The translations under genes and the position numbers were made by a program. From Sphingomonas arenae (GTDB lineage: Bacteria; Pseudomonadota; Alphaproteobacteria; Sphingomonadales; Sphingomonadaceae), in the NCBI RefSeq assembly GCF_016924655.1, contig NZ_JAFFJU010000001.1, forward strand, positions 1-64,000: a stretch of DNA of 64,000 nucleotides. Direction: 5' to 3'. Position 1 is the stretch's first letter. Each line of letters starts with the position of its first letter. Positions 22,551 to 61,856 of the stretch are shown here, piece by piece. The notes beneath the pieces were generated by a model, which saw only the letters and a program-made list of their open reading frames with translations, had not been told where the DNA came from and did not search any database.

Positions 22551-22553
22551 TTC

Positions 22554-22634
22554 GTCATGCCGGGCTTGACCCGGCGTCCGCCTTTCCTTGCATCATCGTT
22601 GAAGAAGGCAGGCCCCGCTCAAGGCCGGGGTGAC
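22554..22634. repeat. Palindromic intergenic repeat (GCCGGGCTTGACCCGG family)
   Basis: GTCATGCCGGGCTTGACCCGG (22554-22574) and the reverse complement of 22613-22634 match at most positions, forming an 81-base imperfect palindrome between the exporter and peptidase genes. A second member of the type lies at 30342-30423. Confidence 0.7.
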
Positions 22635-30334: not shown

Positions 30335-30341
30335 AACATCC

Positions 30342-30423
30342 GGCACCCCGGGCTTGACCCGGGGTCAGCCTTCCTTCTTTCACTTCGGCAGAAAAGGAAG
30401 ATGCCGGACCAGGTCCAGCATCA
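30342..30423. repeat. Palindromic intergenic repeat (GGGCTTGACCC family)
   Basis: CACCCCGGGCTTGACCCGGGG (from about 30344) and GATGCCGGACCAGGTCCAGC (30400-30419) are imperfect inverted arms, 82 bases in all, between the hydratase stop and the ribosome-binding site of mmsB. Same family as 22554-22634. Confidence 0.65.
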
Positions 30424-47836: not shown

Positions 47837-49462
47837 ATGGCCACTGCCGCGCCCGCAGCACCGACCGCCAACAAGGCCGAGCTGCTCGCCATTGCCGACA
47901 GCGTTGCCCGCGAGAAGCTGATCGATCGGGGCATCGTAATTGAGGCGATGGAGGACGCCATCCAGCGCGCCGCCCGCGCCCGCTATGGTGCCGAGAACGA
48001 CATCCGCGCCAAGCTCGACGGAACCACCGGCGACCTCCGGCTGTGGCGCGTGCTCGAGGTGGTCGAAGAGGTTGAGGACTATTTCAAGCAGGTCGACGTA
48101 AAGGGCGCGCAGAAGCTGCAGCCCGGCGCCTCGGTCGGTGACTTCATCGTCGACCCCCTGCCCCCGATCGAATTCGGCCGCATCGCGGCACAGGCTGCCA
48201 AGCAGGTCATCTTTCAGAAGGTCCGCGATGCCGAGCGCGAGCGGCAGTACGAGGAATTCAAGGACCGCGTCGGAGAGGTCATCACCGGTGTCGTCAAGCG
48301 CGTCGAGTTTGGGCACGTGGTGGTCGACCTGGGCCGGGCCGAGGGAGTCATCCGCCGCGACCAGCAGATTCCGCGCGAGATGGTCCGCGTCGGCGACCGT
48401 GTCCGGTCGCTCATCCTGCGGGTTGCTCGCGAGACCCGCGGGCCGCAGATCTTCCTGTCGCGCGCTGCCCCTGATTTCATGAAGAAGCTGTTCGCGCAGG
48501 AAGTGCCGGAAATCTACGACGGCATCATCGAGATCAAGGCCGCCGCCCGCGACCCGGGCAGCCGCGCGAAGATCGGCGTGATCAGTCGCGACAGCTCGAT
48601 CGACCCGGTCGGCGCCTGCGTCGGCATGAAGGGCAGCCGCGTGCAGGCAGTCGTGCAGGAACTGCAGGGCGAGAAGATCGACATCATTCCCTGGAGCGAG
48701 GACACGGCGACCTTCGTGGTCAACGCGCTTCAGCCGGCGACGGTCAGCCGCGTGGTGATTGACGAGGAAGAGAGCCGGATCGAGGTGGTGGTTCCCGATG
48801 ACCAGCTGTCGCTCGCGATCGGCCGTCGCGGCCAGAACGTGCGCCTCGCCTCGCAGCTCACCAACTCGCAGATCGACATCCTGACCGAGGCTGACGCCAG
48901 CGAGAAACGGCAGCGCGAGTTCATCGAGCGGTCCGAGATGTTCCAGAACGAGCTGGACGTGGACGAGACGCTGGCGCAGCTGCTGGTCGCCGAGGGCTTC
49001 ACCAGCCTGGAGGAAGTTGCTTACGTCGATGCGGACGAGATTGCCTCGATCGAGGGGCTCGATGAGGACATTGCCTCCGAGCTGCAGAGCCGCGCTGGCG
49101 AAGCACTGGAGCGGCGCGAGGCCGCCTCGCGCGAGGAGCGCCGGGCGCTGGGTGTCGATGATGCGCTGGCCGAGCTGCCGCACCTGACCGAAGCGATGCT
49201 GGTCACGCTCGGCAAGGCCGGCGTCCGCACGTTGGACGACCTTGCGGACCTCGCCACCGACGAGCTCATCCAGAAGAAGCGGCCCGAGCCGCGCCGTCGG
49301 GCAGAGAATGCGCCGCAGCGGACCGAGGACAAGGGCGGCATCCTTGCCGAATACGGCCTCACCGAAGAGCAGGGCAACGAGATCATCATGGCCGCGCGTG
49401 CCCATTGGTTCGAGGACGAGCCCCAGACCGAGGAGGCCGCCGATGCGGAATCCTCGCAATGA
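47837..49462 (+). CDS. nusA: Transcription termination/antitermination factor NusA
   Basis: A 541-residue RNA polymerase-binding factor. The N-terminal domain ([20 protein letters not shown]) is followed by S1 ([22 protein letters not shown] near residue 150), KH1 and KH2 ([20 protein letters not shown] and [19 protein letters not shown]) and two helix-hairpin-helix repeats (ATLDDLADL-like and [16 protein letters not shown]). The C-terminal end overlaps the ylxR start by 20 bases. It controls pausing, termination and rRNA antitermination. Confidence 0.97.
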
Positions 49463-50279
49463 TCCGTCGGTAAGGCCACCCAAGGCCGTTCGGTCCGAGC
49501 GCAGTCGAGGACCACAGCCGAATGAAGCCGAGGCACATGTCTCGGCTCCGGTCTTTGACGCATCTCGATTGCGCTCTACGCGATCGGGTGGTGGAAATGC
49601 CCAGACACCTGAGCGCACCTGCGTCCTGTCGCGACGGACGGGCTCCCGTGATGAGCTCATCCGCCTCGCACTGGGTCCGGACGGCCAGGTGCTCCCCGAC
49701 GTGCGTGCCAAGGCGCCCGGCCGCGGAGCCTGGATCGGCGTTCCCCGGCCGGAGCTCGACTCCGCCATCGTCAAGGGCAAGCTCAAAGGCGCGCTCTCGC
49801 GGGCGTTCAAGACCGGGGAACTGACCGTCCCTTCCGACCTCGGCGAGAAGATCGAAGCCGCTCTTCGGCAGGCAGTCCTTGATCGGCTCGGCATGGAAGC
49901 CCGCTCCGGCAACCTGATCAACGGGGCTGACCGGGTTGAACAGGCTGCACGCATGGGCAAGGTGCGCCTGCTGCTTCACGCCGCCGATGCGGGTTTGGAC
50001 GGTCGCAGGAGGCTGGACCAGGCTTGGCGAGTGGGCGGCGCGGAAGAGCGTGGCCTCTCGCGCGGGCTGGAAATTCCGGTCGAACGCACCATCTTGTCCA
50101 TGGCACTCGGGCGCGAGAATGTGGTACATGTCGCGCTGATCGACCCAGCCGCCGCAGCGCGTGTCTTGCACGCGCTGTCACGGTGGCGCGCTTTCATTGG
50201 AGTGGGACGTGGGCTAGAGGGCGGCGACGCTGCCCTGGCCACCGGCTCGGCTGACTTGACGAACGAAGGAACAGAATGA
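49443..50279 (+). CDS. ylxR: YlxR/DUF448 RNA-binding protein with in-frame repeat insertion
   Basis: A 278-residue protein. The YlxR domain (ERTCVLSRRTGSRDELIRLA, LGPDGQVLPDVRAKAPGRGA) is followed by an L7Ae-like domain (DRVEQAARMGKVRLLLHAAD). It is a nucleic-acid-binding protein of the nusA-infB operon. Residues about 10-55 between the start and the conserved ERTCVL are unusual: they are encoded by a palindromic repeat at 49486-49588. ATG 49443 overlaps the end of nusA with GAGGAGG upstream; a start after the repeat is not available as ATG. The stop overlaps infB (ATGA). Confidence 0.88.
   Translation: MRNPRNDPSVRPPKAVRSERSRGPQPNEAEAHVSAPVFDASRLRSTRSGGGNAQTPERTCVLSRRTGSRDELIRLALGPDGQVLPDVRAKAPGRGAWIGVPRPELDSAIVKGKLKGALSRAFKTGELTVPSDLGEKIEAALRQAVLDRLGMEARSGNLINGADRVEQAARMGKVRLLLHAADAGLDGRRRLDQAWRVGGAEERGLSRGLEIPVERTILSMALGRENVVHVALIDPAAAARVLHALSRWRAFIGVGRGLEGGDAALATGSADLTNEGTE
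49486..49588. repeat. About 100-bp palindromic repeat inside ylxR
   Basis: Its left arm (from CCGTTCGGTCCGAGCGCAGT at 49486) closely matches the left arm of the truB repeat. GAGCGCAGTCGAG (49497-49509) pairs with CTCGATTGCGCTC (49564-49576), and GCCGAG (49527-49532) with CTCGGC (49541-49546). The reading frame continues through it. Confidence 0.75.
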
Positions 50280-58037: not shown

Positions 58038-59042
58038 ATGACTTCCGGATCCCCGCTCGTCCATGGCTCGCTACCGCTGAGCGGCTGGATCATCCTGGAC
58101 AAGCCGGTCGGCCTCGGGTCCACGCAGGCGGTCGGCGCCGTCAAGCGGGCCGTGAGGGAAGCGGGCCTATCCAAGACCAAGGTCGGACATGGCGGGACCC
58201 TTGATCCGCTGGCAAGCGGAGTCCTTCCCATTGCCCTTGGCGAGGCAACCAAACTGTGCGGACGGATGCTGGACGCCACCAAAGCCTACGACTTCACCAT
58301 TCGCTTCGGCGAGGAAACCAGCACGCTGGACGCTGAGAGTGAGGTCATCGCGCGCAGCGACGTGCGGCCTTCGATGGAGCAGGTCCTGGGCGTGTTGCCG
58401 CAGTTCACGGGTGAGATCGAACAGATGCCGCCCGCCTATTCTGCGCTGAAGGTGGATGGGCGAAGGGCATACGACCTCGCTCGGGCAGGCGAGGACGTGG
58501 CGCTGAAGAGCCGCAGGATCGTCGTGCATTCCCTTTCCGTTCAGTCCGGGCGAAGTCGCGGACCCAATTCGAGCGAGGGCGAGGAAGGCCTCGGCTCCGC
58601 TCCGCAAGGCCTCTCGACTTCGCTCGAGGCGAACGGCCTTAGTGATGTGACCCTCTCAGCGACCGTCAGCAAAGGCACATACATCCGGTCTCTTGCGCGA
58701 GACATTGCCTGGGTCCTCGGCACGGTCGGCCACGTCACCATGCTGCGGCGCACCAAGGCCGGACCATTCACCCTCGAACAAGCGATTTCGCTGGACTTTC
58801 TGAACGAAGCCGCTAAGTCGCGGCGGCTTGATGGGGCGGTACTCCCGCTCATCGCGGGGCTGGACGACATCCCGGCCCTCCCCATCGATCCCGAACAGTG
58901 CCGGAGGCTCCAACACGGCCAGGTCCTGTTCGGCTTACCCGTAAGCCCGGGTCCCTACCTTGCCACCGACGCTGGTCGTCCCGTGGCTCTGGTGGAGGTC
59001 TCGGAAGGCGTCTGCAAGGTCGTCCGCGGGTTCAACATCTAG
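58038..59042 (+). CDS. truB: tRNA pseudouridine(55) synthase, with in-frame repeat insertion
   Basis: A 334-residue enzyme that makes pseudouridine 55 in the T-loop of tRNAs. [18 protein letters not shown] and the catalytic Asp56 in [11 protein letters not shown] are intact; [18 protein letters not shown] and [15 protein letters not shown] follow. Between them, about residues 167-200 ([20 protein letters not shown]) are foreign to the family: they are encoded by a palindromic repeat at 58537-58636. The frame is kept and the rest is normal. It lies upstream of rpsO by 17 bases. Confidence 0.94.
58537..58636. repeat. About 100-bp palindromic repeat inside truB
   Basis: CCGTTCAGTCCGGGCGAAGT (from 58537, arm to 58561) and the reverse complement of 58612-58636 match at about 19 of 25 positions; an inner AAGGCCT/AGGCCT stem lies between. 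The left arm is close to that of the ylxR repeat at 49486. Confidence 0.8.
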
Positions 59043-59489: not shown

Positions 59490-61856
59490 ATGTTTGACAT
59501 CAAGACTGTAGAAATCGATCTCGGCGGCAAGACGCTGAAGCTCGAAACCGGGCGCATCGCCCGTCAGGCGGACGGAGCCGTCCTTGCCACCCTCGGCGAA
59601 ACCGTCGTGCTCTGCGCCGTGACCGCCGCCAAGAACGTGAAGCCGGGCCAGGATTTCTTCCCGCTCACCGTCCACTACCAGGAAAAGTTCTCGGCCGCCG
59701 GCCGTATTCCGGGTGGCTTCTTCAAGCGTGAGCGTGGCGCGACCGAGAAGGAGACGCTGGTCTCCCGCCTGATCGACCGCCCGATCCGCCCGCTGTTCCC
59801 GGAGGGCTTCTACAACGAGGTCCTCGTGATCGCGCACGTCATGTCCTACGACGGCGAGAACGAGCCGGACATCGTGGCGATGATCGCTGCTTCGGCCGCC
59901 CTCACCATCTCGGGCGTTCCCTTCATGGGTCCGATCGGCGCAGCCCGAGTCGGCTTCATCGACGGTGAGTATGTGCTCAACCCGTCGCCGGAGCAGATCA
60001 AGGAGAGCGCGCTCGACCTGGTTGTCGCCGGCACTCCGAACGCCGTGATGATGGTGGAATCCGAGGCGAAGGAACTGACGGAAGAGCAGATGCTCGGCGC
60101 CGTCATGTTCGCGCACCGGGCCAGCCAGAAGGTCTGCGACGCGATCATCCAGCTCGCCGAGCAGGCCGCCAAGGAGCCCTGGGAGCTGAACCTGATCGAC
60201 GACAAGTCGGCCACTCTCGCGAAGCTCCGCGACGTCATCGGCGCGGATCTGGAAGCCGCCTACAAGCTGACCAGCAAGCAGGAGCGCCAGACTGCGATCA
60301 ACGAGGCCCGGGCCAAGGCCCGCGAAGCCTTCAAGGATCTCGAGGAGTCCGATCCGGCCCAGTATCTCGCCACGCTGAAGCTGGTGAAGAAGCTGGAAGC
60401 GGACGTCGTCCGTGGTGCGATCCTGAAGGAAGGCCGCCGCATCGACGGCCGCGACACCAAGACGGTGCGCCCGATCGAATCCATGGTAGGCTTCCTGCCG
60501 CGCACCCATGGCTCCGCGCTGTTCACCCGTGGCGAGACGCAGGCGATCGTGACCACGACGCTCGGCACCAAGGACGCCGAGCAGATGATCGACGGCCTGG
60601 AAGGGCTCTCCTACCAGCGCTTCATGCTGCACTATAACTTCCCGCCTTACTCGGTCGGTGAAGTGGGCCGTTTCGGCGCGCCGGGCCGCCGCGAGGTTGG
60701 ACACGGCAAGCTGGCATGGCGTGCGCTGCACCCGATGCTGCCGAGCGTGGAGGAATTCCCCTACACGATCCGCGTCCTGTCCGACATCACGGAGAGCAAC
60801 GGCTCCTCGTCGATGGCGACCGTATGCGGCGGCTCGCTGGCCATGATGGATGCCGGCGTTCCGCTGAAGGCTCCGGTAGCGGGCATCGCCATGGGCCTGA
60901 TCCTGGAAGGCAATGACTTCGCGGTCATCAGCGACATCCTTGGCGACGAGGATCACCTCGGCGACATGGACTTCAAGGTCGCCGGCACCGAGAATGGCGT
61001 CACTGCGCTGCAGATGGACATCAAGGTCGCGGGCATCACCGAGGAGATCATGAAGGTCGCCCTCGCTCAGGCGAAGGACGGCCGCGCGCACATCCTCGGC
61101 GAAATGGCGAAGGCCCTTTCCTCGACGCGTGGTGAGCTTTCGGCTCACGCGCCTCGCATCGAGACCATGTCGATCCCCAAGGACAAGATCCGCGAAGTGA
61201 TCGGCACGGGTGGCAAGGTCATCCGCGAGATCGTCGCGACGACCGGCGCCAAGGTCGACATCGACGACGAGGGCGTGATCAAGATCAGCTCGTCGGACCT
61301 GTCGCAGATCGAGGCTGCCCGCAACTGGATCCGCGGCATCGTCGCGGAGCCGGAAGTCGGCACAATTTACACCGGCAAGGTCGCCAGCATCGTCGACTTC
61401 GGCGCGTTCGTCACCTTCATGCCCGGCAAGGACGGGCTGGTGCACGTGTCCGAAATCAAGAACGAGCGGGTCGAGAACGTCCGGGACGTCCTGTCCGAAG
61501 GCCAGGAGGTCAAGGTCAAGCTTCTCGAAGTCGACCAGCGCGGCAAGGTCCGCCTGTCGATGCGCGTCGTCGATCAGGAAACCGGCGCCGAGCTGGAGGA
61601 CACCCGTCCTCCCCGCGAGGATCGGGGTCCGCGCGGTGATCGCGGAGACCGCGGAGACCGCGGCGGCCGGGACGGCGATCGTCGTCGGGGCGGCGGAGAC
61701 CGCGACCGCGGTCCCCGTCGTGACGGTGGTGATCGTGGACCCCGCGGTGATCGCGGTGATCGCGGTCCGCGCCGCGAGCGCAGCGATCGTGACGACAACG
61801 GCCCTGCGCCCGAGTTCGCACCCGCGTTCCTGACCGGCGGCAACAACGACGACTAA
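59490..61856 (+). CDS. pnp: Polyribonucleotide nucleotidyltransferase (PNPase)
   Basis: A 788-residue phosphorolytic 3'-5' exoribonuclease of the degradosome. Two RNase PH domains ([18 protein letters not shown]-like start; [20 protein letters not shown] near residue 335; [20 protein letters not shown] near 490), a KH domain ([20 protein letters not shown] near 570) and an S1 domain ([20 protein letters not shown] near 625). The tail after about residue 705 is a Arg-Gly-Asp-rich low-complexity run ([16 protein letters not shown]), then [24 protein letters not shown] precedes ATG 59490. Confidence 0.98.

Follow-up and report, generated by a model that had tools for sequence, protein, structure and literature searches.

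Known palindromic repeats in bacterial genes

The closest described systems are the elements RPE-1 to RPE-7 of Rickettsia. According to PMC3767692 and PMC2229807, these are palindromes of ∼100–150 bases which fall into several classes, lie in frame in conserved genes at solvent-exposed places and occur between genes as well. A guanylate kinase bearing an RPE was active, with a changed substrate affinity (PMC2229807). PMC3767692 describes 18 Rickettsia genes in which all orthologs carry an insert at the site; one origin is favoured there for RPE-4, RPE-6 and RPE-7, and insertion hotspots are called ‘still not negligible’.

For the most part, the CGTC-tagged REPs are palindromic dimers arranged head to head, each unit being defined by a stem of 8–9 bp, a loop of 4–5 bases and a CCA-like tail. 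They are common in alphaproteobacteria, sphingomonads among them, have no transposase partners and are sometimes found in genes (PMC3733652, published in 2013). That paper names three species with REPs in truB, namely S. maltophilia, E. litoralis (spelt lithoralis) and S. alaskensis, and gives truB of R. conorii as a carrier of RPE-1. REPs in genes of one category are said there to be at different sites, recB excepted, and loops and linkers are suggested to make REP insertions neutral. Finally, REPtrons, or RAYT-linked REPs, are short, often paired, non-autonomous palindromes.

Here we consider a palindrome in truB of Sphingomonas arenae. As the original prediction had it, the repeat behaves like the RPEs in being carried in frame by protein-coding sequence. 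The genes concerned are truB, ylxR and hrpB, and its sequence is a different one. It starts with CCGTTC and ends with GAACGG, unlike both the CGTC-tagged REPs (no CGTC, TGTC or CCTC tag) and the RAYT-linked ones (no GTAG tag). We hold it highly probable that a dispersed REP/RPE-like repeat has placed one of its copies, the insert, in the β-hairpin turn of TruB, and that across Sphingomonadaceae this turn is a recurrent landing site of unrelated palindrome families.

The palindrome in truB

The window, i.e. the whole stretch of 64 000 nt that was analysed, belongs to a genome of 2.76 Mb. Its truB gene (58038–59042, + strand) encodes a tRNA pseudouridine(55) synthase of 334 aa, with matches to TIGR00431 (217 bits, cut-off 151) and to Pfam TruB_N and TruB_C_2; the best named relatives of the gene are labelled Sphingomonas and Sphingomicrobium. 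An imperfect palindrome of ∼100 bases had been predicted from the sequence at 58537–58636 (+), and these limits turned out to be exact to the base: RNA folding, alignment and the covariance model all identify the 100-base repeat. In the minimum-energy structure, the arms of the outer stem (58537–58564 and 58608–58636, +) enclose an inner hairpin (58571–58602, +), and the right arm contains the common core CTCGACTTCGCTC at 58613–58625, located by the core search. RNA of the coding strand folds at −58.1 kcal/mol (z = −2.9), with none of 200 shuffles equally good; for the opposite (−) strand z is −1.7, with 11 of 200 shuffles equally good. Thus, the window copy is among the weaker palindromes. 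The genes rpsO and pnp lie downstream of it. Since bases flanking the repeat pair too, codon phase was not taken from the outermost predicted pair.

The reading frame of truB is open across the whole palindrome, which bears out the claim of an in-frame insertion. Codons 170–202 (58545–58643, +) form a loop of 33 residues in place of the turn of 4–15 residues seen in bare members of the family sample, in keeping with the ∼30 extra residues, unlike the family, that had been noted. The catalytic block was likewise correctly described as kept: codons 52–59 (GGTLDPLA; 58191–58214, +) are intact in the alignment of TruBs, and G53-T54-L55-D56-P57 is unchanged across 49 aligned proteins. D56 is taken to be the catalytic aspartate of the family.

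An AlphaFold2 model of the window protein (49 sequences, mean pLDDT 89) pairs strands 159–173 and 201–210 as a β-hairpin and places the insert as a low-confidence loop at its tip, confidence being low from residue ∼174 to 200. The three blocks within residues 171–200 have pLDDT of 66, 49 and 57; the other blocks are at 78–97, except for the N-terminal ten residues (53). Among solved structures, the closest to the model is that of E. coli TruB bound to RNA (1k8w), where the corresponding turn lies between residues ∼171 and 181. The model suggests a disordered loop, and TruB with the insert presumably works normally.

We also considered whether the insert is a T-loop mimic bound by TruB, and rejected this: TTCRA occurs in 7 of 40 inserts with 8.9 expected, and a T-loop-like pattern in 4 with 3.0 expected. 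Separately, the 3′ part of pnp (61603–61803) has a run of 9-base repeats encoding a tail rich in D, R and G.

Copies in the genome and the genus

The element was expected to be repeated elsewhere in the genome, and further copies were indeed found both in genes and between genes. When up to one mismatch is allowed, the 13-base core GAGCGAAGTCGAG gives 32 matches genome-wide, against seven for the reversed control. The covariance model gives four strong full-length copies: in truB, in ylxR (49486–49587), at C1:88238–88351 and at C2:158209–158309; their E-values are circular, because the model was built from these same four copies. In a DNA search with the whole element from truB, the copy in ylxR is matched at an E-value of only 0.02. 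The repeat family is small in this genome.

The window's second copy, 102 bases long by alignment and covariance model (+ strand), lies in frame near the N-terminus of a YlxR domain protein (ylxR, 49443–50279, +), which scores below the PRK09190 cut-off (161 versus 184 bits). Its left arm had been called nearly the same as that of the truB repeat; counted by eye on the alignment, 24 of 28 positions agree. The copy at C1:88238 is inside hrpB (TIGR01970, 854 bits), in a stretch where nine aligned relatives have fewer residues, and the one at C2:158209 is intergenic by open-frame reading. All three in-gene copies are on one strand by model score and at codon offset 1, starting 499 (truB), 43 (ylxR) and 1453 (hrpB) bases into the frame (modulo 3 = 1).

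Weaker relatives were detected by the covariance model at C2:388031 (E-value 5e-6), 729556 (4e-4), 840647 (0.001) and 708605 (0.03), as well as at C4:109270, whose E-value of 0.3 is by itself not significant. These five are intergenic by open frames, the one at 729556 overlapping the final 13 bases of a 165-codon frame, and they represent a sister kind of palindrome (CCGCTCGTCCCGAGCG..). One of them is directly upstream of a gene that we take to be purN. The window also holds two copies, 84% alike, of another REP-like sequence of the CGTCATGCCGGGCTTGACCCGGC type (22553–22584 and 30341–30372).

When the covariance model was run on the genus, 30 of 71 genomes had matches at E-value ≤0.001, most of the matches listed being 55–80 bases long. 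One genome (G623) has a full-length copy at E-value 2e-15, a value independent of model building; this copy lies between genes that are presumably rph and hrcA.

A RAYT as mover of the repeats was rejected. A profile search for Y1_Tnp (PF01797), covering the Y1 class only, gave no match in the window genome, and the domain is present in 3 of the 71 genus genomes; the same model detects it in 5 of 14 control genomes. Membership in RPE1 was rejected as well, as TIGR01045 matches nothing in the window genome and is not among the NCBIfam matches of TruB, YlxR and HrpB; in the class, 4 of 385 genomes match this model, two of them above the cut-off. Six TruBs of Rickettsiaceae (nine genomes searched) have short turns of ∼6–15 residues by eye. 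A Rickettsiaceae TruB (L381, genome G590) has, at another place, an in-frame direct duplication with PTSPDEGTCLQ appearing twice.

The TruB turn in Sphingomonas and Sphingomonadaceae

In the genus, truB was found in 67 of 71 genomes. Twenty of these genes encode at least 16 residues at the turn, and 17 of the 20 inserts are palindromic under the rule used throughout (z ≤ −2 on both strands), the exceptions being L063, L068 and L401; among the other 47 turns, 32 were read as short and 15 were taken as short from match spacing. The inserts belong to several families described below (F1, F2, F3, F4b and others). F4b, the kind present in the window, was not found in any other genus genome whose turn was read, so that it is not an ordinary variable loop shared by all relatives, as a comparison of truB among them could have revealed. 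The 43-residue turn insert of L401 (genome G617) is non-palindromic and unlike REP peptides; its genome is among the three of the genus with a Y1 transposase.

The set of named relatives was ordered by similarity to the query and has genomes in common with the even family and genus samples; therefore, the main counts were taken from the even family sample, in which 149 genomes were drawn evenly, 148 of them (90 genera) had truB, and all 148 turns were read. Sixty-five rows are bare, with 4–15 residues (this number includes L309, cut by the contig end within an apparent insert), and 31 of the 65 have exactly 5 residues. In another 34 rows the turn holds nothing but a short lead and an inherited extension of ∼23 residues (..GRPDPYDPxAPLELAD); L228, L271 and L276 were assigned to this extension by hand. 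Loops with the extension only did not pass the palindrome rule in any of 8 cases in the named set. The extension distinguishes a large group within the family, for which it is a possible signature insert; nothing on it was found in a literature search.

The remaining 49 rows have at least 16 residues at the turn beyond the inherited extension. Forty of these long loops are palindromic on both strands, with mean z of −6.9 and −7.3; for 136 control segments of the same truB genes, tested on one strand, mean z is −0.3 and nine are at ≤ −2. The nine long loops failing the rule are L225, L235, L258, L260, L284, L286, L291, L316 and L332. In six rows a palindrome stands next to the inherited extension. 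No other place between conserved TruB columns accommodates such lengths: 79 of 145 rows (without the contig-cut L309, the short frame L348 and L278) have at least 16 extra residues at the turn, and the next internal site has at most 9. In 27 further TruBs the turn has 5 to 10 residues; four of these proteins are of the genus, and 23 represent different families within the order.

The inserts fall into about seven families, assigned by eye, not blind, from peptide motifs: F1 (HPREGGDP), F2 (GPPPRAGE), F3 (HAELVSAS..LKQVQGDE), F4a (EPVEG), F4b (VERSRG), F5 (SPEGEG) and F7 (LPAGE), plus one other. Searching with blastn, we found elements related to that of the window at the same turn in the distant family members L119 (E-value 8e-8), L235 (3e-6) and, weakly, L111 (0.006); for L225, which is labelled F4b, blastn gives no support (E-value 0.25). 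F2 is present at the turn in two reading frames (..ILPGTGRG.. and ..SSPARGGG..).

Two rows deserve mention for their own sake. The 89-residue turn loop of L333 (genome G124) reads as a row of adjoining REP units (HPEFISGS..LKQVQYDD, LNQVQHDD and RPELVEG). In L278 (genome G170), an F5-like insert is followed by about a dozen residues unlike relatives and then by family sequence, either a pair of frameshifts or an assembly error.

The truB cores of L126 and L140, both labelled Sphingomonas sanguinis, are 91% identical, and yet the turn has 9 residues in the former and 44 in the latter. A search for filled and empty pairs close enough to show the exact target site or duplications gave none closer than ∼91% identity.

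Copies of the inserts outside truB and inserts in neighbouring genes

Copies of the inserts were sought with blastn (E-value ≤0.001) in 1.48 Mb of loci with truB masked. For the first set of 60 truB inserts, 41 have copies there, against 4 of 60 for the control; some of the 19 inserts with no copy in those loci are the inherited extension. The arm pattern of F2 has 3 to 183 forward matches in ten genomes with F2 in truB, the truB copy counted, and 0 to 2 matches for the control. The lowest number, three, belongs to G149, where the two matches beyond truB have two mismatches. The same arm is also present 1 to 16 times on the forward strand in four genomes without F2 in truB.

In the named loci, inserts of at least 16 residues number 50 in truB (78 rows), 37 of them palindromic on both strands. 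As many as 72 such inserts were seen in infB (56 rows), with one palindromic, and six in pnp (71 rows), with none palindromic; nusA (44 rows) and rbfA (67 rows) have no insert of this size. The fact that long inserts in infB and the other genes are rarely palindromic indicates that palindromes do not follow simply from a gene's tolerance of long inserts. All these control genes are near truB, and the contrast is thus one between truB and its neighbours. One of the 50 truB inserts at first fell in a different column; on realignment there were 49 long inserts, every one of them at the turn. Outside truB, 72 REP-like places were seen, one of them inside the 476 kb of rimP, nusA, ylxR, infB, rbfA, rpsO and pnp, a screen that is insensitive, as it missed the window's own copy in ylxR. 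At the GC content of this DNA, the position of such places relative to open frames carries no information.

Changes on the truB tree

Changes of state were counted by parsimony on a single-gene FastTree tree of 146 truB rows (L309 and L348 left out) with the loop columns removed. Between the palindromic and non-palindromic states there are 28 changes. Nearly each member of an insert family is a separate change: five changes for five rows in F1, 12 for 12 in F2, six for eight in F3, six for six in F4a, five for five in F5 and three for three in F7, with eight long loops without a palindrome excluded from these counts. The inherited extension needs nine changes for 42 rows. Parsimony does not separate gain from loss; we infer that most of the changes are gains.

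Possible explanations

In the mechanism that we favour, a copy of a dispersed REP/RPE-like palindrome would have landed in the codons of the β-hairpin turn of TruB. Two features would let it persist: the frame in which it is read contains no stop codon, and a floppy loop at the turn does no harm to the fold; an open frame and a tolerant turn would together act as a filter on inserts. Unrelated families of palindromes would arrive at the turn and decay or be lost there, separately in many lineages. The inserts themselves are probably near neutral.

One may go further and suppose that arrival at truB is favoured beyond mere tolerance, as the comparison with the neighbouring genes seems to suggest. 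In the strongest form of this idea, mobile palindromes would either target the turn by preference or be kept there by selection, through a RAYT-independent process acting across Sphingomonadaceae on several unrelated families, perhaps owing to a property of the truB locus such as transcription, replication or a benefit at the RNA level in the truB-rpsO-pnp region. We put this forward as a tentative proposal that could well turn out to be wrong.

A related thought is that the hairpin is kept for the sake of RNA, strong hairpins of any sequence in the truB message tuning the expression of truB, rpsO and pnp. It would fit with unrelated families giving a strong hairpin at one place, which in the window is upstream of rpsO and pnp, and REPs have been discussed as RNA elements (PMC3733652). 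Still, 65 of the 148 rows (one of them contig-cut) are bare and 34 have the extension only, and the two S. sanguinis genes, so similar in their cores, differ in having a 9- or a 44-residue turn, and the T-loop patterns counted above are not enriched in the inserts; we find this explanation improbable.

The turn could also be an ordinary variable loop whose palindromic look is due to chance or GC content. The rows with the inherited extension alone and the non-palindromic insert of L401 imply that the turn tolerates any sequence, and for single rows a variable loop is a possible account. As a general explanation it is very improbable, given that 40 of the 49 other long loops fold much more stably than shuffled sequences whichever strand is taken, that two-thirds of the inserts (41 of 60) match DNA elsewhere against 4 of 60 control segments, and that a gene rich in long inserts, infB, has a single palindromic one among 72.

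Equally hard to believe is one old palindrome that was in the turn already when the family split and has since diverged past recognition, the type of origin favoured for RPE-4, RPE-6 and RPE-7 in PMC3767692: the site is the same everywhere and L068 and L258 look decayed by eye, yet for several families separate sets of copies are scattered elsewhere, F2 sits at the site in two reading frames, nearly half of the bare rows (31 of 65) have turns of 5 residues, six rows combine a palindrome with the inherited extension, and the 27 further TruBs of the genus and order have short turns.

Implications for TruB and for palindromic repeats

Returning to recurrent landing of dispersed palindromes as the preferred reading, we note that REPs in truB as such were already in print in 2013 (PMC3733652); what this analysis adds is that the inserts share a single site, belong to several families and turn over. 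In the literature searched, which covered few subscription journals, we found no description of truB as a hotspot where several families use one site. While CGTC-tagged REPs in a category of genes are, according to that 2013 paper, spread over different sites (recB excepted), one site takes all in the TruBs read here; and unlike the Rickettsia genes, many of these truB orthologs have a bare turn and in others it is filled by families unrelated to one another.

Whether a shared palindrome site reflects a hotspot or one old insertion has been debated for Rickettsia, where all orthologs are filled (PMC3767692). The sphingomonad truB offers a free-living case, in which a single genus contains both filled and empty relatives and a single turn houses unrelated families, and therefore makes the hotspot question directly testable. 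It also accounts for lineage-specific segments of TruB as translated repeats. One loop of this protein would seem to be a place where mobile DNA lands.
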